Assembly (NCBI RefSeq): GCF_007741495.1
Contig: NZ_CP036262.1
Coordinates: 4,464,001-4,528,000 of the forward strand
DNA from: Roseimaritima multifibrata
GTDB taxonomy: Bacteria; Planctomycetota; Planctomycetia; Pirellulales; Pirellulaceae
Direction of reading: 5' to 3'
Length of the DNA: 64,000 nt
This document shows positions 11,198 through 55,417 of the stretch, in pieces; within the stretch, counting starts at the first letter, position 1, and the number at the start of each line of letters is the position of its first letter. The position numbers were made by a program, and so were the translations under genes. The notes below the pieces were generated by a model that worked only from the letters and a program-made list of their open reading frames with translations, did no database searches and was not told where the DNA came from.

Positions 11198-12550
11198 TTA
11201 AACTTCAATCACCTGGTTGCTGTCAGCGAATTGGTCGACTTCGACCCCCATCCGCTGAGCCATCATCAGCAACAGGTTACTCATGTGGGCGTCCGGATTC
11301 GCAGGGCGACTACAGAGCCGATAGTGTTCTCCGGGTCGGTCTAGCTGATATCCGTCGAAATGGCCTTGGTTGAAATCGAGATGACTGCCGTGCCGCAGAC
11401 CGAGTTCCGAACCGCCGGCGAGCACCAGAGGGAGATTGGCGTTGCCGTGGCTGTGACCGTAAGACATGCCGCTGCCGAACAACGACATCGTCGAGTCGAG
11501 TAACGGTTTGCCGTTAACGTCCTTGGTCTCGGCAAGCCGGCTGAGGAAATAGCCGAACTGCTCGATGGCGAAGGTGTCGTAGTTGGTCAGTTTCTCCATG
11601 TAGCCCGGATCACCGCCATGGTGGCTAAGTTGATGACGCGACTCGGTGATGCCGATTTCGGGAATGGCAATCGCCTGGCCTTCGCCCCCCATGCTGAAGG
11701 TGGCCACGCGAGTCACATCCGTCTGAAAGGCGAGCACCATCAGGTCGTAGACCGTGCGGAAATAGTCTCCGGCCATGGTGACGGCGATGTCGCGGTCGGT
11801 ACGTTTACGATCATTTTCCGAGATGTCGGGCAGCGGAGTGTCCAGCCACGCATCGGCTCGCCGCGTGCGGATCTCCGCCTCACGCACCGACGTCATATAC
11901 TGTTCCATACGTCCTTTGTCAGCAGCCCCCATCTTCTGCTCCAGTCGCCGCACTTCGGCGAGGTTGTCGTCCAGCACGCTGGCTTTACGACGTAAGGCTC
12001 GACGCTGGGCTGCGACGCCTCCTTTGGGTTTCTCGAATAGCGACGCAAAGATCTCACTGCAGCGACGCAGCGGAGGCAGCCCAACTCCATCGGCCGTCCA
12101 GGCAAGCGATTCCTGGTTGATGGCAATTTCCATCGATGGGTAACGCGTATGCTGGGCCGTGATTTCGGCCATCTTCTGGTCCACCGAGATGGAATTGCGA
12201 TCCGTCGGCCCCAGCTTACCGCCGGTAAGCCAGATCTTAATGCAGTTGTGGTGGTGGCCGAGACCTCCCGGGTGATGCAGACCGCTGATCGGGGTGATGA
12301 CACCGCGATACTTCTCCAAAGGCTTTAGTGATTTGGAGAATTCGTAGCCCTTGCCCGGCGTCGTTATCTGGTAATTCAGCGAATGGACGCCGTTGGCCAG
12401 ATAGATGAAAGCACTGCGCCGCGGTGAGGATACTGGTTCTGACGCACGAAGCGGAATCATGCATTCCAGCATTGGCAGCGAAATGCAAGTACCTAGTGCG
12501 CGTAGAGCGTGGCGACGGTTGATCAGCCAGGATTGGGAGAGGAAAGTCAT
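11198..12550 (-). CDS. DUF1552 family exported protein
   Basis: 450 aa. The N-terminus carries a twin-Arg-like signal ([11 protein letters not shown]), then [20 protein letters not shown]. The body has the DUF1552 hallmarks [84 protein letters not shown] and the final [15 protein letters not shown]. The last of these resembles the alkaline-phosphatase-like DUF1501 group. The family is abundant in planctomycetes, and its enzymatic role is not established. It is usually the immediate partner of a DUF1592 cytochrome. Here that partner is 2.3 kb upstream with a repeat block in between, so the normal co-transcription may be disturbed. Confidence 0.93.
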
Positions 12551-12555
12551 TAGGT

Positions 12556-13735
12556 TTTTCTTGGGCTGGTGGCTTTGGGTTGTGCTGGTGGGCTGCTGCG
12601 TTGCTGGAGGAAAATGATTAAGTAGTAATGGAAATTGGAGAATTCAGAATGGGTGCTTTTGGTTGTGGCTTATTGCGGGGTTTTGTGACTCGGGCTTCGT
12701 GGTTCGGTTTGTTCTGCGGGGAGGAAGCTGCGTTGCTTGGAAAGGAAATGAGTAAGGAGTAATGGAAATTGGAGAATGCTGAATGGGTGGTTTGGTTGCT
12801 GCTTTTTGCGGGGTTGGGCGATTCAGGCTTCGTGGTTCGGTTTGTTCTGCGGGGAGGCTGATGCGTTGCTTGGGGAGGAAATGAGTAAGGAGTAATGGAA
12901 ATTGGAGAATGCAGAATGGGTGGTTTTGGATGTGGCTTTTTGCGGGGTTGGGCGATTCAGGCTTCGTGGTTCGGTTTGTTCTGCGGGCAGGCTGCTGCGT
13001 TGCTTGGAAAGAATGATTAAGGAGTAATGGAAATTGGAGAATGCAGAATGGGTGCTTTTGGTTGCTGCTTTTTGCGGGGTTGGGCGATTCAGGCTTCGTG
13101 GTTCGGTTTGTTCTGCGGGCAGGCTGCTGCGTTGCTTGGAAAGAATGATTAAGGAGTAATGGAAATTGGAGAATGCAGAATGGGTGGTTTTGGTTGCTGC
13201 TTTTTGCGGGGTTGGGCGATTCAGGCTTCGTGGTTCGGTTTGTTCTGCGGGGTGACTGCTGCGTTGCTTGGAAAGAATGATTAAGTAGTAATGGAAATTG
13301 GAGAATGCTGAATGGGTGGTTTGGTTGTTGCTTTTTGCGGGGTTGGGCGATTCAGGCTTCGTGGTTCGGTTTGTTCTGCGGCGAGGCTGCTGCGTTGCTT
13401 GGGGAGGAAATGAGTAAGAAGTAATGGAAATTGGAGAATGCTGAATGGGTGCTTTTGGTTGCTGCTTTTTGCTGGGTTGGGCGACTCAAGCGATTCGACG
13501 TTGGGAGTTGGTTGTGCTGGTGGGTTGATGCGTTGCTTGGTGAGAATGATTAAGGAGTAATGGAAATTGGAGAATGCAGAATGGGTGGTTTTGGTTGTTG
13601 CTTTTTGCGGGGTTTTGCGACTCGGGCTTCGTGGTTCAGTTGGTTGTGCTGGTGGGTTGATGCGTTGCTTGGAAAGAATGATTAAGTAGTAATGGAAATT
13701 GGAAATTGCAGAATGGATGCTTGTAGTTGTGGCTG
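12556..13735. repeat. Tandem array of ~132-bp units (left array), nine copies
   Basis: The motif TAATGGAAATTGGAGAATGC recurs with small changes at 12626, 12760, 12893, 13025, 13157, 13289, 13422, 13558 and 13690, so the spacing is 132-136 bp. The remainder of each unit (TTTTTGCGGGGTTGGGCGAT, TTCGTGGTTCGGTTTGTTCT, GCTGCGTTGCTTGG, AATGATTAAGGAG) is also conserved, with base changes and 1-4 bp indels. The array begins only a few bases from the DUF1552 start codon and ends at the stop codon of the four-helix-bundle gene. The shared motif reads on the plus strand, towards that gene. Confidence 0.95.
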
Positions 13736-14134
13736 TCAGTTTTTGTCGGGCTGTGAATGGTTGGATTTGGCTGTGACTAGTGACTTGGCGATGATCTTGC
13801 AGAGTTGATCGCACTCGTCTCGTAGCTGTTCGAGACGTTGTTCGGGTATTAACTCGGACTTGACAATTAAGCGTATCCAAACGGAGCTTTCTCGCAGTTC
13901 TTTTAGGACGATTGCCAGTTTGTGAATAAAATCCTTCTTGCTTTCCGCGGCACATGCTTCTGCATAATTCGGAGCAGGAGACGTACCCGACCGAACAATC
14001 TGTCCGGCAATGTGCCTTCCCAGCCGGGTGCTTGGCAGCGCATCAACTGCTTTCCCAACTCGAACAGCAAACTCCAGCAATCGTTCTTCAATATCCGCTC
14101 CCTTCCTCTCCACACCTCTCCCTTCATTTTGCAT
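13736..14134 (-). CDS. Four-helix-bundle protein (S23/IVP family)
   Basis: 132 aa, all-helical. Family landmarks are LLEFAVRVGKAVDALPSTRL, GRHIAGQIVRSGTSPAPNYAEA, AESKKDFIHKLAIVLKELRE, SSVWIRLIVKSELIPEQRLE and LRDECDQLCKIIAKSL. These are the proteins first seen as ORFs in 23S rRNA intervening sequences and related in fold to the Avd accessory protein of diversity-generating retroelements. No reverse transcriptase, variable gene or 23S rRNA is nearby. The gene is bounded by two arrays carrying the same motif in opposite orientation. Its own start overlaps a copy (ATGGAGATTGGAAAATGC at the N-terminus, another ATG ten codons off), so the start may be a few codons away. It lies between DUF1592 and DUF1552 on their strand. 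Confidence 0.85.
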   Translation of the reverse strand: MQNEGRGVERKGADIEERLLEFAVRVGKAVDALPSTRLGRHIAGQIVRSGTSPAPNYAEACAAESKKDFIHKLAIVLKELRESSVWIRLIVKSELIPEQRLEQLRDECDQLCKIIAKSLVTAKSNHSQPDKN

Positions 14135-14812
14135 TTTCCAATCTCCATTAAATATTAATCATTCCCACTCCACTTCACTTCGTCGCTTCCCCAAAGCACC
14201 AAAATCCCCACCAAAACCAAACCACCAACAACTCCGCATTCCTTCTCAGTAAAGTCTCCCAAAAAGCCATTCTGCAATCTCCAATTTCCATTACTCCTTA
14301 ACCATTCCCACTTCACCTCACTTCGCCGCTTCCCCAAAACTCCAAAACTCCAAAACTCCAAAACTCCAAAACTCCAAAACTCCAAAACTCCAAAACTCCA
14401 AAACTCCAAAACTCCAAAATCGCCACCACAACCAAACCACCACAAACTCCGCATTCCTTCTCAGTAAAGTCACCCAAAACAGCCATTCTGCATTCTCCAA
14501 TCTCCATTAAATATTAATCATTCCCACTCCACCTCACTTCGCCGCTTCCCCAAAGCTCCAAAATCGCCACCAAAAACAAACCACCAACAACTCCGCGTTC
14601 CTTCTCCGTAAAGTCACCCCAAAAGCCATTCTGCATTTTCCAATTTCCATTACTCCTTAATCATTCACACTCCACCGCACTTCGCCGCTTCCCCCAAGCT
14701 CCAAAATCGCCACCACAATCAAACCACCAGCTCCGCATACCTTCTCCGTAAAGTCTCCCCAAACAGCCATTCTGCATTTTCCAATCTCCAATAAATATTA
14801 ATCATTCAACCA
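14125..14812. repeat. Tandem array of ~143-bp units (right array), five copies
   Basis: CATTCTGCATT-type anchors lie at 14125, 14268, 14484, 14627 and 14768, giving steps of 143, 216, 143 and 141 bp. The long unit is explained by an 8-bp repeat tract inside it (14334-14419). On the minus strand each unit reads GAATGATTAATATTTAATGG then AGATTGGAGAATGCAGAATG, the same motif as in the left array but pointing the other way. The rest of the unit (CTTTACTGAGAAGGAATGCG, GGAAGCGGCGAAGTG) differs from the left array. It runs from the start of the four-helix-bundle gene to the stop of the DUF1592 gene. Confidence 0.93.
14334..14419. repeat. Octanucleotide tract (CCAAAACT)n
   Basis: Ten full copies of CCAAAACT (14334-14413) and six further bases. 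Other units of the same array have a single copy here, so the tract arose by slippage within one unit. The open frames it creates (FWSFGVLE repeats) are artefacts. Confidence 0.95.
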
Positions 14813-14821
14813 CACCTCATT

Positions 14822-17320
14822 TCACCGCTTCCTCAAGAGCTCCGACATCGCCACCGCACGCACAATATCACGGACTCCGTGTTGATTCTCTTTCGCTTCG
14901 TCGAAAATCGCTTGGGTATCTTCTAAATCATCCACGGTCAGTACGCGGCGTAGCGCGTAGGTACTTAGGTGCTCGATGAACGCTTGCAGGAACGCGTCAC
15001 GATCTTCTAGCAGCAATTGTTTAAACTGATCGGAATCGCTGAACTCGCGACCATTGGGCAAAACTCCCGATGCATCGACTTGCGGATCTTTGCCTTTTCC
15101 ACCTTCGACGCGTTCGTGCGTGCGCCACTGGCCTATCGCGTCATATTGTTCGAACGCAAAGCCAAGCGGATCGATGTTTCGATGGCAAGCTGCACAACTG
15201 GCGTTCTGGGCGTGAACCGCCAACCGTTGCCGAATGGTGATCTTATCCCCTTCAGGCGGAACCGGTTCGATCGGCTCCACATTTGCCGGCGGTGGTGGTG
15301 GCGTTTTGTTGAAAATGGATTCACTCAGCCATGCACCGCGGTGAACCGGGCGATGACGGGTGCCGTCGGATGACAAGCCGAGCACTGCCCCCATTGTCAG
15401 CAGACCGCCGCGATGATCGTCCGGCTTAAGCGAAACTCGCTGAAAACCACCCGAAGTCGACTCCGGCAGGCCGTAAAAGTCACCCAATCGAGCATTGGTC
15501 ATCGTCCAGTCCGAATGAATGAACTCATCCAGCGGAAGATTCTTTGCGAACATCTCACGGAAGAATTCAACCGGCTCGTTCCGCATGCTTGTTTCCAACC
15601 AGTCGTCGTAGCCGGGGAAGAGATTCTTATCGGGCGGGAACATGCCGACTCGGTGCAATTGCAACCATTGCCTCGAGAAGTCTTCGATGAATCGATGGAT
15701 TCGAACGTCCGTCAGCATCCGATCGACCTGTTTCGCAAGGACGAAGGATCCTGTCTCTGGAGTTTCGGAATCGCTCGACTGGCGGCCTGGCGCACATAGG
15801 AAACCACTGCCAGCGGCCGCATTAAGATCATCATCGGGCATCGAACTCCAAAGGAAATAAGACAACCGCGAGGCGAGTTCCCAATCCGTCAGCCGTTCGC
15901 GCGCTACCAAATCGCCCTCAACTAGGTAGATAAAGTGCCGTGACGTCAGCACTCCCTTCAACGCGACCTCATAGGCATCGGCCAGGCTTTCGCCCGCATC
16001 GCGTTCGGCTTGGTAGGATTGCAGATAGTTTTGCAACTCTTGCATATTCACCGGACGCCGCCAAGCTCGCTGGGCGAAACGCTGCAGATGCTCCGCAACC
16101 ACTTCGGGCGTCGCGTCTTCTGGAGGGAGCACGCCACTGCGCCGCGATTTCTCCGCGTCCGTTACCAGCGGCCCTTCCCACTCAATCCAATCGAGGATGA
16201 CCGTCGAAAAAAGGCCGTTCCCCTTTTCATCAAACATTTGTGGGGCGTTGGGGTTCAGCAGCAGAGGTTCGCTGCTATGCGTGAAAATGTATCCACCGCC
16301 GCTGGAGAGCACGTTGCGGAAAGCGGAGCCTTTTCTTTCATCGACCATGTCGGTGGCCACGACGCAGAATTCTAAATTCGTTGGCATCTCGAGGAGCGTT
16401 TCGAACTCATAGACCTTTGGAGCGTCCTCCGGTGCAGTGATGTCAAATTCAATCAGCCCGTTGACGTTTTCCCTGCTGGCGCCTGTCACCTTACCGATGC
16501 TTAGGTGTGCCGGTTGGCCGCCGGGGGGCCGAGTTCCGCTGGCCTGGATGCGGACTTTGTAGAGCCCACTATGTTCGGGGCCGGTTCTCCCAAACCACCT
16601 TGACGATAACGCGTTCTGGACTCGACCGGGAAACAGGAGGTACCGCAACGGCCGTTCGATGCCGAGGCGATCCAACGCTTCTTGCTGAGGCTTTCCGCCT
16701 CCGTAACGTAACTCGGCCGCGGTTTTGCGAACCTTGCGAGCCTCGCCGGATGCTTCGGAGAAAGCGCGGTCTAGTACGACTTCCGCGGCGTGATAATAGC
16801 GGTCAACATGCGACGGGGAGAGTGAAAGTTCCGAACCAATCCGTTCGTAACCGTGCCATAAAGTGTCTTCGTTTAACTCACCTGGCTGAGTCGGATCATA
16901 GCGCACGCCCAGTAGGTCATAGACCGTGTTCTGATACTCCTTGCGGCTCAGTCGATAATGAGCCACCGGCGCGCGAGCGGCCATCCGCGCAGCCTTGCCT
17001 TCCTTAATCTGAGAATGGAGCTTCGAGACGAACGCTGCGATCTCATCCTGAGTCGGCTGCGGCTCATCCTCGGGAGGCATCTGTCCGGCGTTGATCCGCT
17101 CAATGACCTCCCCCCAGTGCTGGGCATCAACGCCTGACGAGAAGTCGCGAGAGAGCTGATCAAGACGTACCTCGCCCTCATCCGCTTCCGGCCCATGACA
17201 GCGATTACAGTGCTGCGTAAGAAATGCCTCGAATGGGTCAGCTCCACGAACAGCACCAGCCAAGGAAAAGCTGGCGATCATAAGCACGATTGAACGAGCA
17301 AAGAATTGAAAAACTAACAT
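14822..17320 (-). CDS. DUF1592 exported cytochrome c protein (PSD1-type)
   Basis: 832 aa from the ATG at 17320, chosen because the signal peptide follows directly ([20 protein letters not shown], cleavage near VRG-AD). Domains in order: planctomycete cytochrome c with haem site CNRCH and a distal GQMPP; DUF1587 ([18 protein letters not shown]); a carbohydrate-binding-like insert; DUF1595 ([15 protein letters not shown]); DUF1592 ([31 protein letters not shown]); DUF1588 ([42 protein letters not shown]-like [17 protein letters not shown]); and DUF1585 ([12 protein letters not shown]). It is expected in the periplasm; electron transfer or polymer oxidation is assumed for the family but unproven. 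Its stop abuts the right repeat array. Confidence 0.95.
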
Positions 17321-18415
17321 GGTTGATGAGAAAGCAAATCGCTTATCGGTGGTGGGTGGAGTGTAGTGAGTAGACAAGGTGGAGTCCGTCGCACGACAGG
17401 AGATTAAACACGTTCTGTCATCGCCTCGCCTCCCAGTCGATTCGTGTTGCCTGCAATTTCGACACAAAGTTCGTCGATTGTTTCATCGCATTGCCCTGTC
17501 GGCCAAAAGTCCATTATACGCTCGCAACGCTTGATGCTTTCTCCTAAATCAACCTTTTTGATGGCGTCTTGGAAACTGCCGGAAGAATCCGACCAGCAAC
17601 GCGTTGGAGGCAACAAATCGTCAGCACGCCGCGAGCTCCGATTACAAGCAGTCGAATTCTGCGTCGATCGCGAGACAAGTTTGTAAATCTCGTTCGATAC
17701 GCAGCTGATCGACCAGACCTTGGTTTTGTCAGGATCCACAGGTCTACCAGCATCCGTCGCACGAAATACGGCAACACGTTGGTGTCGATAGTCACGCGAC
17801 CATTGATCACAAATTGCGAATCCGCATCGATCAGGCTGGCGTGAAAGCGACGGCGTTCGGTCCGCTATTTTTTTTCGACCGGTCGGACCGTCGAAGCAGT
17901 GCCAGTCGCACAAAGTTGCCGCCCGCCAAACTCCGGCATCATACCTCTTGATCAAACAGCGCCGCATCTCACTGCCTCCTCAAAACCGATCCCCAGCGAA
18001 CCTAACGAAATGGTACCGCCGTAAGGGCTAAATCGAAGAAGGGTTTACGATGGTAAACAGCTTTGCGACCATAGTTCCCCGGAAGATCCTGGTTGCCATA
18101 CCGGCAACCATCGAACATGTTAAACTCGCCGATTGGAAGCTTAGCCTTGCCCGCGAACGGGTGTCCGGCAATTACTTGTGTTCACGATTTCGCGTCAGAA
18201 AGCGGTCCGTTTAATGAAGCGATTAAAGAGGACAGCTTGGGACCTGCACTGGAAGCAAAGTTGTCACTCACCTGACTGGCCGAGCTGTCGGTTTCGTGAT
18301 TGTCGCCTTTCGCTCCGCGGAAGAACGCTCCGTTAAAGCTAGTTACGCGGAGCGAAAGGCGACAATCTTTCTCCGTTTTCGATTCAATCGACAGCCCGTG
18401 AGGCTTGGAGTTATT
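17321..18415. other. Gap of ~1.1 kb, one doubtful minus-strand frame
   Basis: A minus-strand frame at 17404-17967 (187 codons) ends in a helical, protein-like stretch (DAIKKVDLGESIKRCERIMD). Its first 100 codons are Arg/Ser-rich and look out of frame. An overlapping frame contains VTIDTNVLPYFVRR, which resembles the first strand of PIN-domain toxins but is not continued. This may be a decayed gene; I cannot name it. The rest of the gap holds the inverted repeat at 18298-18367. Confidence 0.3.
18298..18367. repeat. 70-bp inverted repeat, copy 2 (also at 5276)
   Basis: The outer arms GATTGTCGCCTTTCGCTCCG and CGGAGCGAAAGGCGACAATC are perfectly complementary over 20 bp, with a centre containing AGAACGCTCCGTTAAAGCTA. 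It sits about 50 bp upstream of the esterase start, where it could affect the esterase promoter or mRNA leader. Confidence 0.9.
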
Positions 18416-19813
18416 ATGAAAAAGATTCAACTGCAATGGCGGCGTATGGCATGCTCCGGAACCAAAACCTTCGCCTTCGCTGTGTGGATGTTCGCGATGG
18501 TCATGCCCGCCTTTGGGCAAAAGCTGAACACCGAAAATGAACGCGTCATTCAAAGCGAGCGGCCTGACGGTCGACACGTGAGCACGCGAGGATTCCAGCA
18601 GCATCTGCTCCGTAACGCCAAACCGAAACTGGCATTTAATCCGGAATTCACCCCTGAGGAGTTCGAACAGTGGCGGTCCCAGGTACGCGTCAAGCTGCGG
18701 GAATTGATGAACTTCCCCGAACCGGTTCCTCAACCTCCGCCGCGTAAGCTTTGGTCCCAGGAACGCGAAGGTTATGTGCTGGAGAAATGGGAGCTCTATC
18801 CCGAGCACGGCAGCGTGGTTCCGTTTCTGGTGCTGATCCCAGACAACGCCACGCCTGAGAGTCCGGCGCCCGCGATCATGTGTCTGCCGGGTTCCTCAGG
18901 CACCAAAGAGAATCTGGCTGGCGAGCCGCCGCTGGTAGCGGCATTCGAACCGGATGACCGCAATCATGACGGCTGGCTTCACGCACAACGCAATCAGCAG
19001 GCCGTGCAATTCGCCAGAGCTGGGTTCGTTGCGGTAGCGGTCGACCATCCAGGAAACGGCGAACTCTCCGACTTGGCAATGCATCGCGGCAGCACGATGG
19101 ACGATCGCAGCACACTTTCGCGATATCTCATCGACATGGGCCGCAGTTACATTGCTCTCTCCGTGTTTCAAAAGCAGCAGATCCTCACCTGGCTGCGCGA
19201 GCGACCGTACGTCGATGACTCACGTGTTGCCGTAAGTGGTCATTCACTTGGCACGGAGGCTCTGCTGGTGCTGTCCGCACTCGACCCGCAAATTCAAGGC
19301 ATCGTTTGGAATGATTATCTCGCCGCCACGATCGAACGGGCGAAAGTCAGCACCATGCCCAATCAACGCGGTATCAGGCCGACGGCAAACTGGCTGGGCC
19401 ACTGTATTCCGGGGCTATGGGAGTGGTTCGATTACCCTGATTTGGTCGCCGCCTTAGCACCGCGTCCATTGATCGTGACCGAAGGCGGACCGACGCATTC
19501 ACTGAACCTCGTGCGCAAGGCTTATCAGATCGCCAGGGCACCGGAAAAGGTTTCAATTCACTACTATCCCCAATACAGTGATCCGAATGATCGACGTGAT
19601 GGCAAGCCGATTCCAGAGGGTCTGAACGCGACCGAATGGTTGGACCACGCCAACGTGAATGCCGCCCACCACTATTTCAAAGGTTACCTAGCAGTTCCAT
19701 GGCTGAGTCGCCAATTCCAACTGCCTGATCCCGGGGAAGTCTATCCGCCCGCGCCGCCCGAGGCTGTGAGTGGAGGAGTGAAGGAGTGGAGGAGTGAAGG
19801 AGTGAAGGAGTGA
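18416..19813 (+). CDS. Secreted dienelactone-hydrolase/acetyl-xylan-esterase-like protein
   Basis: 465 aa. The start at 18416 has TTGGAG upstream, followed by a signal peptide with a long basic N-region and core FAFAVWMFAMVMPAFGQ. The alpha/beta-hydrolase features are PAIMCLPGSSGTKENLAG, GFVAVAVDHPGNGE, the nucleophile elbow VSGHSLGTEALL, the acid strand APRPLIVTEGG, and a late His in DHANVNAAHHYFKGYLAVPW. It is expected to cleave ester groups, perhaps on polysaccharides, outside the cytosol. The last about 15 residues (GGVKEWRSEGVKE) are encoded by the start of an 8-bp repeat tract, so the present C-terminus is not native and would change with copy number. Confidence 0.85.
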   Translation: MKKIQLQWRRMACSGTKTFAFAVWMFAMVMPAFGQKLNTENERVIQSERPDGRHVSTRGFQQHLLRNAKPKLAFNPEFTPEEFEQWRSQVRVKLRELMNFPEPVPQPPPRKLWSQEREGYVLEKWELYPEHGSVVPFLVLIPDNATPESPAPAIMCLPGSSGTKENLAGEPPLVAAFEPDDRNHDGWLHAQRNQQAVQFARAGFVAVAVDHPGNGELSDLAMHRGSTMDDRSTLSRYLIDMGRSYIALSVFQKQQILTWLRERPYVDDSRVAVSGHSLGTEALLVLSALDPQIQGIVWNDYLAATIERAKVSTMPNQRGIRPTANWLGHCIPGLWEWFDYPDLVAALAPRPLIVTEGGPTHSLNLVRKAYQIARAPEKVSIHYYPQYSDPNDRRDGKPIPEGLNATEWLDHANVNAAHHYFKGYLAVPWLSRQFQLPDPGEVYPPAPPEAVSGGVKEWRSEGVKE

Positions 19814-20070
19814 AGGAGTGAAGGAGTGAAGGAGTGGAGGAGTGGAGGAGTGGAGGAGTGGAGGAGTGGAGGAGTGGAGGAGTGGAGGAGTGGAGGAGTG
19901 GAGGAGTGGAGGAGTGGAGGAGTGGAGGAGTGGAGGAGTGGAGGAGTGGAGGAGTGGAGGAGTGGAGGAGTGGAGGAGTGGAGGAGTGGAGGAGTGGAGG
20001 AGTGGAGGAGTGAAGGAGTGAAGGAGTGGAGGAGTGGAGGAGTGGAGGAGTGGAGGAGTGGAGGAGTGGA
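19768..20070. repeat. Octanucleotide tract (GGAGTGGA)n, about 38 copies
   Basis: About 303 bp of GGAGTGGA, with some GGAGTGAA variants clustered at both ends (19780-19835 and near 20010-20030). Because the unit is 8 bp, adding or losing one copy shifts any reading frame through it. The tract overlaps the end of the esterase gene and abuts the remnant of a CoA-binding-protein gene. Frames across it on both strands (EEWRSGGV and STPPLLHS repeats) are artefacts. Confidence 0.97.
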
Positions 20071-29979: not shown

Positions 29980-30027
29980 AGTTTGCCCGTAGCGAACCGC
30001 GCGGAGCGTTTCAGTAGTAAACTGTAG

Positions 30028-30114
30028 CGGTGGCATCCTGCCGCCGTCCATGAAACTGTAGCGGTGGCATCCTGCCCCCGTCCATGAAACTGTATCGGTG
30101 GCATCCTGCCGCCG
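30028..30114. repeat. Three REP copies upstream of RAYT 1
   Basis: CGGTGGCATCCTGCCGCCG occurs at 30028, 30062 (with CCCCCG) and 30096, each preceded by ACTGTAG or CTGTAT and separated by TCCATGAAA. Each copy folds as CGGTGGCA-TCC-TGCCGCCG. The spacing is 34 bp. Confidence 0.93.
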
Positions 30115-54491: not shown

Positions 54492-55327
54492 TCGGTGCCT
54501 AGGGAGTCTCAATTTCAGGACAAGGATTCACACGTTCACGGAAGTCAAATTCGAGTTCCGTTTCTTGAGGAGTAAGGTTCCTAACTTCGCCTTAGTGTGC
54601 ATTTCGTTATTCACGCCTACCGTCGACTTGGAACTCTGGGGAGCACTCGTCGGTTTTCGCTGATTCAGCTGGATTAGTTGAGTTTAATCCCTCACCAGTC
54701 ACACTCGTCACAAAAAATCAGTTCCCAAGAACCCCAAAAGATCGGAGCAAAATTCGTCTGCACGGCGTGGTCTGGACCGTAAATCCGCTGGTTTTATCCA
54801 ATACCCCAGTATTATCGGGCCGCCAGGGGACGCCTGCTTACGCAGTTCAGAGAGCTAGCCCGCGTGGCGATGCGACGACGATCCGTTTCAGAATGCGGCT
54901 AGACATGTTGCGATTCATCGCCGCCCGCGATCGGTGGGGCGCCGCAGGGTGCGGCGTGATGGTTTGGGAGCTTGAAGAGTCGTTCGGACATCGGCTTATT
55001 CGCCCCATGATTTCATTGGGTTGGTGTTTGGTCGTGGCTTGGCGGTGTTGCCTCGCTTTGTTCCGAACCTATCGGGGCGCGTCGGTTTCATCAAGCTTGA
55101 TGTTGGTTTGTGTCCAGATACAAAAAACGCCGTATCAAATCGGAGCCTCCATCAACAGGACAACTGATGTTGCGAAGCAGTGTCGAATTTTCGACGCCCG
55201 GCGAAGAGGGTGGTAAATCCTACGAAAAGGTAAGGCATAATATTACGTTGGTCATGCCCATAAGCGAATCCGCTGACGGACCATAAATCCGATCCTACAC
55301 AGCATCACGGCAATCTCTCGCACTGAT
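54492..55327. other. Gap of ~830 bp without supported gene
   Basis: A plus-strand frame at 54767-55216 is open for 149 codons but has no family likeness or ribosome site, and its composition changes along its length. I do not call it. The promoter of the sensor-kinase operon should be near 54500-54600. Confidence 0.4.
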
Positions 55328-55389
55328 CGTAGTGGATCTTGTTAAAGATCCCTCATCTACTGATCGTAGTGGATCTTGTTAAAGATCCT
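55328..55389. repeat. Two REP copies downstream of RAYT 2
   Basis: GTAGTGGATC followed by TTGTTAAAGATC occurs at about 55329 and 55367, each preceded by CTGATC. The core GATCTTGTTAAAGATC is a near-perfect hairpin. The sequence is unrelated to the REP of RAYT 1. Confidence 0.92.
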
Positions 55390-55417
55390 CATTCCACAAC
55401 ATCCACCCTCAAAATCA

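Follow-up and report, generated by a model that had tools for sequence, protein, structure and literature searches.

As the available parts of the papers cited here describe them, intervening sequences (IVSs) of 23S rRNA genes, for example that of Coxiella, have terminal inverted repeats and, in the loop that these enclose, an S23p ORF, and earlier authors proposed that IVSs are remnants of transposition or were once mobile (PMC4990558). IVP ORFs are scattered over several rRNA sites (PMC11270868), and the DGR accessory protein Avd is said to resemble PF05635 in both sequence and structure (PMC10053308). Heptameric repeats of the GGGAATC and GGGGA(C/T)T types are found in Xanthomonas and Nostoc; two Xanthomonas genomes contain 70 and 75 convergent pairs, and the repeats are generally not associated with mobile elements (PMC4692102). 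Repeats of TAACTGA are found in Beggiatoaceae (PMC4679880). The available text of PMC4692102 contains no mention of "S23," "four helix," or "XCC0516," and that of PMC4679880 none of "S23" or "four helix." Among open-licence full texts in PubMed Central, we found no paper linking S23 genes to heptameric arms.

The S23 block and its junction in relatives

In a 64,000-nucleotide stretch of the Roseimaritima multifibrata genome (the window), a first-pass annotation had described an S23-type gene with a tandem array on either side, the whole filling the gap between a DUF1592 and a DUF1552 gene. This description proved accurate: the gene belongs to PF05635, the arrays comprise 14 motif copies, and the flanking genes border the gap at 12550 and 14822. 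The features are as follows.

11198 to 12550, minus strand: DUF1552 gene, downstream operon gene and host flank (Pfam)
12591 to 13729, plus strand: 3′ (downstream) arm array, nine motif copies with a period of about 132 bp, inverted relative to the upstream array
13736 to 14134, minus strand: S23 / 23S-rRNA-IVP four-helix-bundle gene, 132 aa (PF05635, E=9.8e-17; TIGR02436, E=3.2e-26; PDB 2rld, E=1.1e-16)
14124 to 14807, minus strand: 5′ (upstream) arm array, five motif copies 141-216 bp apart, the innermost holding the S23 start codon
14334 to 14419, no strand assigned: 8-bp CCAAAACT micro-array within the upstream array (TRF, 10.8 copies)
14822 to 17467, minus strand: DUF1592/DUF1588/DUF1587/DUF1585 planctomycete protein gene, upstream operon gene and host flank (Pfam)

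As the annotation had also claimed, the two arrays share a single motif in convergent orientation. With up to three mismatches, TGGARATTGGARAATGCARAATGR occurs 14 times in the window (mean in shuffled sequence, 0.00; n = 100), nine times on the plus strand at 12629-13716 and five times on the minus strand at 14124-14790, so that all copies are aimed at the S23 gene, the ATG of which falls within the copy at 14124-14147. Read by eye, the motif is made of six 7-nt units, GAATGAT, TAAGGAG, TAATGGA, AATTGGA, GAATGCA, and GAATGG. TRF reported a 132-bp unit repeated 8.6 times at 12591-13729 and a 143-bp unit repeated 3.2 times at 14406-14855, and the 25 longest of the 45 inverted pairs listed are 41-61 nt long with 76-98% identity. 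The genes for the DUF1592-type, S23, and DUF1552 proteins are all on the minus strand; the operon thus runs from right to left, and the S23 gene is codirectional with both of its flanks. Outside the block, the window contains an 8-bp GAGTGGAG-type tandem array of 38 copies at 19768-20070, the start of which overlaps the 3′ end of an Abhydrolase_7 ORF (18296-19813), a tandem repeat at 980-1839 with a 101-bp unit (8.5 copies, 91% matches), and short arrays with units of 34 bp and 37 bp at 30019-30114 and 55322-55392, respectively.

Within the block, only the S23 ORF matches a Pfam family. The eight other ORFs within the block or at its edge matched no Pfam family at E≤0.1, and no transposase family was found among the block ORFs. 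An Rfam search of the window gave no match, and none of the nine reverse transcriptase matches of this genome falls in the window, which rules out both an rRNA insert and a DGR locus, in agreement with the annotation. A scan of viral contigs with the window S23 protein identified no relative. When no more than one mismatch is allowed, the R. multifibrata genome has 15 matches to the motif, 14 of them at this locus, and inverted doublets dispersed through the genome and corresponding to one of its genes were not seen. The target-site duplication that the annotation had proposed to look for at 12551 and 14821 was not seen by eye at either block end.

Relatives provided 20 regions with a DUF1552 homologue, 15 with an adjacent DUF1592-type gene and 5 without. 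The 15 junctions comprise ten close ones (DUF1552 69-87% identical to that of the window) and five that are either paralogous or remote. An S23 gene is present in four close junctions. Two of the encoded proteins are related to the window S23, with 87% (G003, contig 546) and 85% (G013) identity, and two are clearly different, one with 24% identity over 74 residues (G003, contig 188) and one that an HMM detected although a BLAST search with the window protein missed it (G022). At the six remaining close junctions and at four of the five remote or paralogous ones the site is empty, only 15-130 bp separating the two genes; another ORF occupies the last junction. Junctions without an insert therefore exist, and S23 genes unlike each other are found at one and the same junction. 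An unbroken presence of the block in relatives, which the annotation had named as refuting its proposal, was thus not what we observed. Filled and empty junctions are scattered on the gene trees. For example, G013 (filled) is sister to G048 (empty), with support values of 99/98 and 95/89 in the trees of DUF1592 and DUF1552, respectively. Repeated gain and a single old insertion followed by repeated clean losses would both fit this pattern.

In the filled relatives the arms are short, not arrays of 1 kb, and are of the AATGATTAATGAGTAATGGAGA type in G003 and of the GAGTAATG type in G013. GTTAGCT/CTAACCC heptamers surround the different S23 gene of G003, and the arms around that of G022 are weak by eye. 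The 132- and 143-bp units of the window, each made of an arm and a spacer, seem to have arisen by later duplication, given that the arms are short in both relatives that carry a related S23. Of the annotation's proposal of a small, perhaps self-amplifying mobile element with inverted-repeat ends, we thus retain the mobile element as the best reading but not self-amplification of these units, which looks like local tandem duplication. The block has the appearance of a mobile element that inserts between neighbouring genes. The annotation had also named wide occurrence of the motif without the gene as a refutation; G003 has a gene-less inverted pair of the window motif immediately after DUF1552, but this has the look expected of a non-autonomous copy.

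Inverted arms and repeat period around S23 genes

We scored the arms of other S23 loci as the best local alignment of the left flank with the inverted right flank, using cut-offs of 30 and 40. A set of 80 named loci from many phyla was picked by similarity to one S23 subgroup (80 of 585 confirmed, among the matches listed) and is not random; six loci without 300-bp flanks were dropped. Scores of at least 30 were obtained for 55 of the 74 measured loci and of at least 40 for 38, leaving 19 below 30. The corresponding counts were 5 and 0 at 593 offset positions in the same loci, and 7 and 2 for 217 small-ORF controls, and none of 26 DUF1552 control loci reached 30. The same threshold was reached by 21 of 25 loci in relatives (best S23 locus per genome, those cut by contig ends excluded), by 14 of 18 loci of the window-type S23 subfamily (two of 20 being cut by contig ends), and by 9 of the 13 S23 loci of R. 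multifibrata itself, which include tandem near-copies. Of the 55 named loci scoring at least 30, 53 have a left arm whose coding strand is rich in G. A further set of loci was hand-picked from the listed S23 HMM matches and is likewise not a random sample. None of 12 further S23 loci checked for rRNA contains any.

The arms have a characteristic repeat period. It is 7 in 52 of the 74 named loci, 8 in 21, and unclear in one, as compared with 25, 6, and 146 of the 217 small-ORF controls. Period 7 was the best among periods 5-12 in all 18 loci of the window-type subfamily, no clarity cut-off being applied. Among 136 S23 protein rows, which are non-identical although some represent one gene fetched twice, the period is 7 in 91, 8 in 32, 6 in 5, 9 in 1, unclear in 5, and unmeasurable in 2; the period-6 rows all belong to one family in the R. 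multifibrata genome. A reduced set of 109 rows, with a clear period of 6-8 and no pair at 80% identity or more, comprises 84 rows of period 7, 24 of period 8, and 1 of period 6. The period clusters on the S23 protein tree and follows protein kinship: it changes 13 times over 128 rows, near-copies included, versus 33 times with shuffled labels, and 12 times on a quick tree of the 109 rows. The nearest neighbour of a period-8 protein also has period 8 in 15 of 24 cases (5.2 after shuffling; 2 of 5,000 shuffles as high).

S23 genes are patchily distributed among genomes and often multi-copy. Of 18 S23-bearing genomes (some in draft form), 7 gave no reverse transcriptase match, among them genomes with 8, 9, and 12 S23 copies; a reverse transcriptase therefore does not seem to be required. 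The structures PDB 2gsc and 2rld have five chains each. RNA folding was compared with that of shuffled sequences and set aside as evidence because just one of two units was clearly better (z of -3.5 and -1.8).

R. multifibrata has a second S23 family, at 1.40, 2.56, 2.997, 1.22, and 5.72 Mb of contig C1 (L003-L005, L007-L010, L012, and L013). Its units, of about 605 bp, have imperfect inverted arms of up to about 85 bp with GTGCTC hexamers, and the right arm is translated into the protein as EHEHEH. Two to three tandem copies are present at three places, and those at 1.22 and 5.72 Mb are incomplete and have a low inverted-arm score. Reverse transcriptases are encoded at C1 2567022, 2569527, 2990764, and 5730149, 2-7 kb from three places of this family. 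A role as DGR enzymes was considered and rejected: the enzyme at 2569527, the only one tested, combines RVT_1 with GIIM domains and so belongs to a group II intron.

The placement of S23 genes is biased as well. Both neighbours could be assigned for 57 of the 80 named loci, the other 23 lacking two neighbour ORFs of at least 100 aa within 600 bp; two of the 80 S23 matches sat inside a longer ORF. In 38 of these 57 loci the S23 gene shares the orientation of both neighbours, in 16 that of only one, and in 3 that of neither (38 versus 3, p=1e-8). Ordinary neighbour pairs in the named loci are codirectional in 257 of 376 cases. Examples are an S23 gene between carA and carB (L152) and one between accB and accC (L212).

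S23 units and gene-less hairpins in Luteimonas

The accB-accC insertion was followed in 41 genomes from the genus of Luteimonas salinisoli. A 1,300-bp accB-S23-accC probe from this species gave an uninterrupted match in nine of them. Among 25 accB-accC loci, 9 have an S23 gene, 10 have 6-10 bp between the accB stop and the accC start, 3 have gene-less heptamer hairpins, and 3 have other inserts of 90-161 bp. The latter (L254, L259, and L261) are rich in GGCCGGCAGGCC-like stretches that are not obviously of period 7, and they may represent another repeat family. The S23 unit at this site measures 440-461 bp and consists wholly of the S23 frame and the arms. By eye, the hairpin of G109 (L252) retains both ends of the S23 frame as in G085, and it therefore looks like an internally deleted unit. 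On the accC tree, covering 25 of the 41 genomes, S23 presence changes seven times, and 220 of 500 shuffles gave as low a number. The left arms pair equally well with their own right arm and with those of elements of the same arm type. Four further S23 units were found in the genus, two of them with weak arms (G111 and G116, scores of 20 and 23), and the unit of G090 lies immediately before carB. The Luteimonas S23 protein is close to XCC0516 of Xanthomonas campestris (PDB 2gsc, E=1.5e-46).

Arm sequences also occur away from S23 genes. In all seven regions tested of nine fetched (six from G060, one from G105), the arm match was one half of an inverted pair, the halves being 27-168 nt apart, too close to hold an S23 gene. 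We counted such doublets genome-wide as overlapping matches, so that one long array counts several times. By this measure, the GGGAATS doublet GGGAATSGGGAATSG has 240 matches in G060, 216 in G105, 163 in G081, and 137 in G091, which are the four genomes with a GGGAATC-armed S23 unit between accB and accC; the other 37 genomes have 0-41, with none in 27. G090, which has a single S23 gene with GGCCAGR arms, has 3 matches to GGGAATSGGGAATSG and 112 to the GGCCAGR doublet GGCCAGRGGCCAGRG, which matches 18 times in G100 and 0 or 1 time in each of the remaining 39 genomes. The GGCCAGR count was made after two hairpins and the S23 arms of G090 had been seen; as the pattern was chosen from G090, its high count there was expected, but its scarcity elsewhere was not.

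Orthologous hairpin sites were compared. At one of them (site A), G091 has a GGGAATC hairpin and G090 a GGGGTCA/GGGGCCA hairpin between flanks that are 97-99% identical; the two heptamers thus differ, and each matches the S23 of its own genome. G105, G081, and G109 have GTGATTC-type arms at site A, unlike the accB-accC S23 arms of G105 and G081. At a second site (B), the hairpin of G091 is missing in G103, G109, and G099, where 3-9 bp are left, and the arms of G060 are unlike those of its accB-accC S23 unit. G105 and G081 (L338 and L339) have about 455 bp more at site B than the empty genomes, which may be coding sequence. Other exceptions to the match are G109 and G100, in which no S23 gene was found in spite of 26 GGGAATS and 18 GGCCAGR matches, respectively, and G111, with 41 GGGAATS matches though its S23 arms differ. 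Hence, the correspondence is strong but imperfect: in this genus, the hairpin heptamer mostly follows the arms of the resident S23.

Proposed mode of spread and comparison with known systems

We consider it probable that S23 units are small mobile elements that sustain gene-less hairpins as well, in the manner of RAYTs and REPINs but without a transposase; their movement is inferred from filled and empty sites. The window block is best read as a locally over-expanded member of a bacteria-wide class. The typical element would consist of one S23-type gene between two inverted arms of 7-nt, less often 8-nt, tandem repeats, the sequence of which would vary from element to element, with a G-rich coding strand at the 5′ end, and it would settle mostly between codirectional genes, along transcription. 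We propose that an S23 oligomer binds the period-7/8 arm hairpin in RNA or single-stranded DNA, with selectivity for the repeat and period of its own arms. Host enzymes of replication or repair, possibly including RNase III as for rRNA IVSs, would then move or copy the S23 unit, and gene-less hairpins with a matching repeat unit would be mobilised in trans. We know of no catalytic site in the S23 fold, and neither a fixed terminus nor a target-site duplication was recognised at the empty and filled junctions compared (the window junction, accB-accC, and the hairpin sites).

The next best reading, which we regard as unlikely, is that S23 is a sequence-specific chaperone or regulator of RNA (or single-stranded DNA), that the hairpins are selected binding sites in mRNA, and that units and hairpins relocate by ordinary recombination and gene conversion. 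Such a protein could account for the strong codirection with host genes, the tight placement ahead of start codons, the matching of S23 and hairpin heptamers, and the good RNA folding of one unit (the other being at z -1.8 only). Hundreds of dispersed doublet matches in some genomes, gene-less hairpins with empty sites, different S23 types at one junction, and the patchy, often multi-copy occurrence of the gene are harder to reconcile with regulation. It is quite improbable that the units are moved in trans by an unrelated transposase, for example a RAYT/Y1 tyrosine transposase or an IS, with S23 as cargo. The arms keep a period of 7 or 8 while their sequence is free, this period clusters on the S23 tree, and the hairpin type mostly tracks the S23 arm type, all of which argue against a passenger role, even though the element contains no known enzyme and the gene-less inverted doublets are laid out like REPINs (available part of PMC3116915). 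Finally, we give almost no credence to a local accident in which satellite DNA expanded next to an ordinary S23 gene: despite the concentration of 14 of 15 own-genome motif matches (at most one mismatch) at this locus, S23 genes, in planctomycetes as well as across phyla, have inverted period-7/8 arms much more often than controls do, which refutes this explanation for the arms and leaves it standing for the 132/143-bp amplification alone.

A bolder version of the mobile-element reading, to which we commit only tentatively and with somewhat more doubt than belief, is that these units are a categorically new kind of bacterial mobile DNA. Their sole protein, a non-enzymatic S23 that reads both repeat period and sequence, would drive the unit that encodes it and, in trans, gene-less hairpins, and hairpin arms would be rewritten or replaced genome-wide when the resident S23 changes. 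The units would then be the source of many heptameric repeats in bacterial genomes, and rRNA IVSs would be members that landed in ribosomal genes. Mobility of S23 units would suggest, at the level of function, what a widespread protein family that annotations call just "four helix bundle protein" does, would relate rRNA intervening sequences to a far broader range of insertions, and would offer an origin for heptameric repeats, which the available parts of the cited papers leave unexplained.

Among known systems, DGRs differ in that the window S23 gene has no adjacent reverse transcriptase and that none was found in 7 of the 18 S23-bearing genomes. The 23S rRNA IVSs share with the window block and its relatives an S23/23S-IVP ORF and terminal inverted repeats (available part of PMC4990558). 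We align S23 units with IVS elements because of this common protein family and the terminal repeats; the rRNA location fails, since the window block lies between the protein genes DUF1592 and DUF1552. S23 units also differ from IVSs by their period-7/8 array arms and their gene-less families. The REPIN/RAYT system, as described in the available part of PMC3116915, resembles that of Luteimonas in its many gene-less inverted doublets matched, with exceptions in Luteimonas, to one gene of the same genome. Unlike it, the S23 element has no tyrosine transposase, and its arms are short tandem repeats with a unit that differs between related species at one site. As for the GGGAATC repeats of Xanthomonas, S23 units of the L212 type in Luteimonas have GGGAATC arms, and by way of these Luteimonas genomes, on which the link rests, the Xanthomonas repeats look like the same kind of gene-less hairpins.
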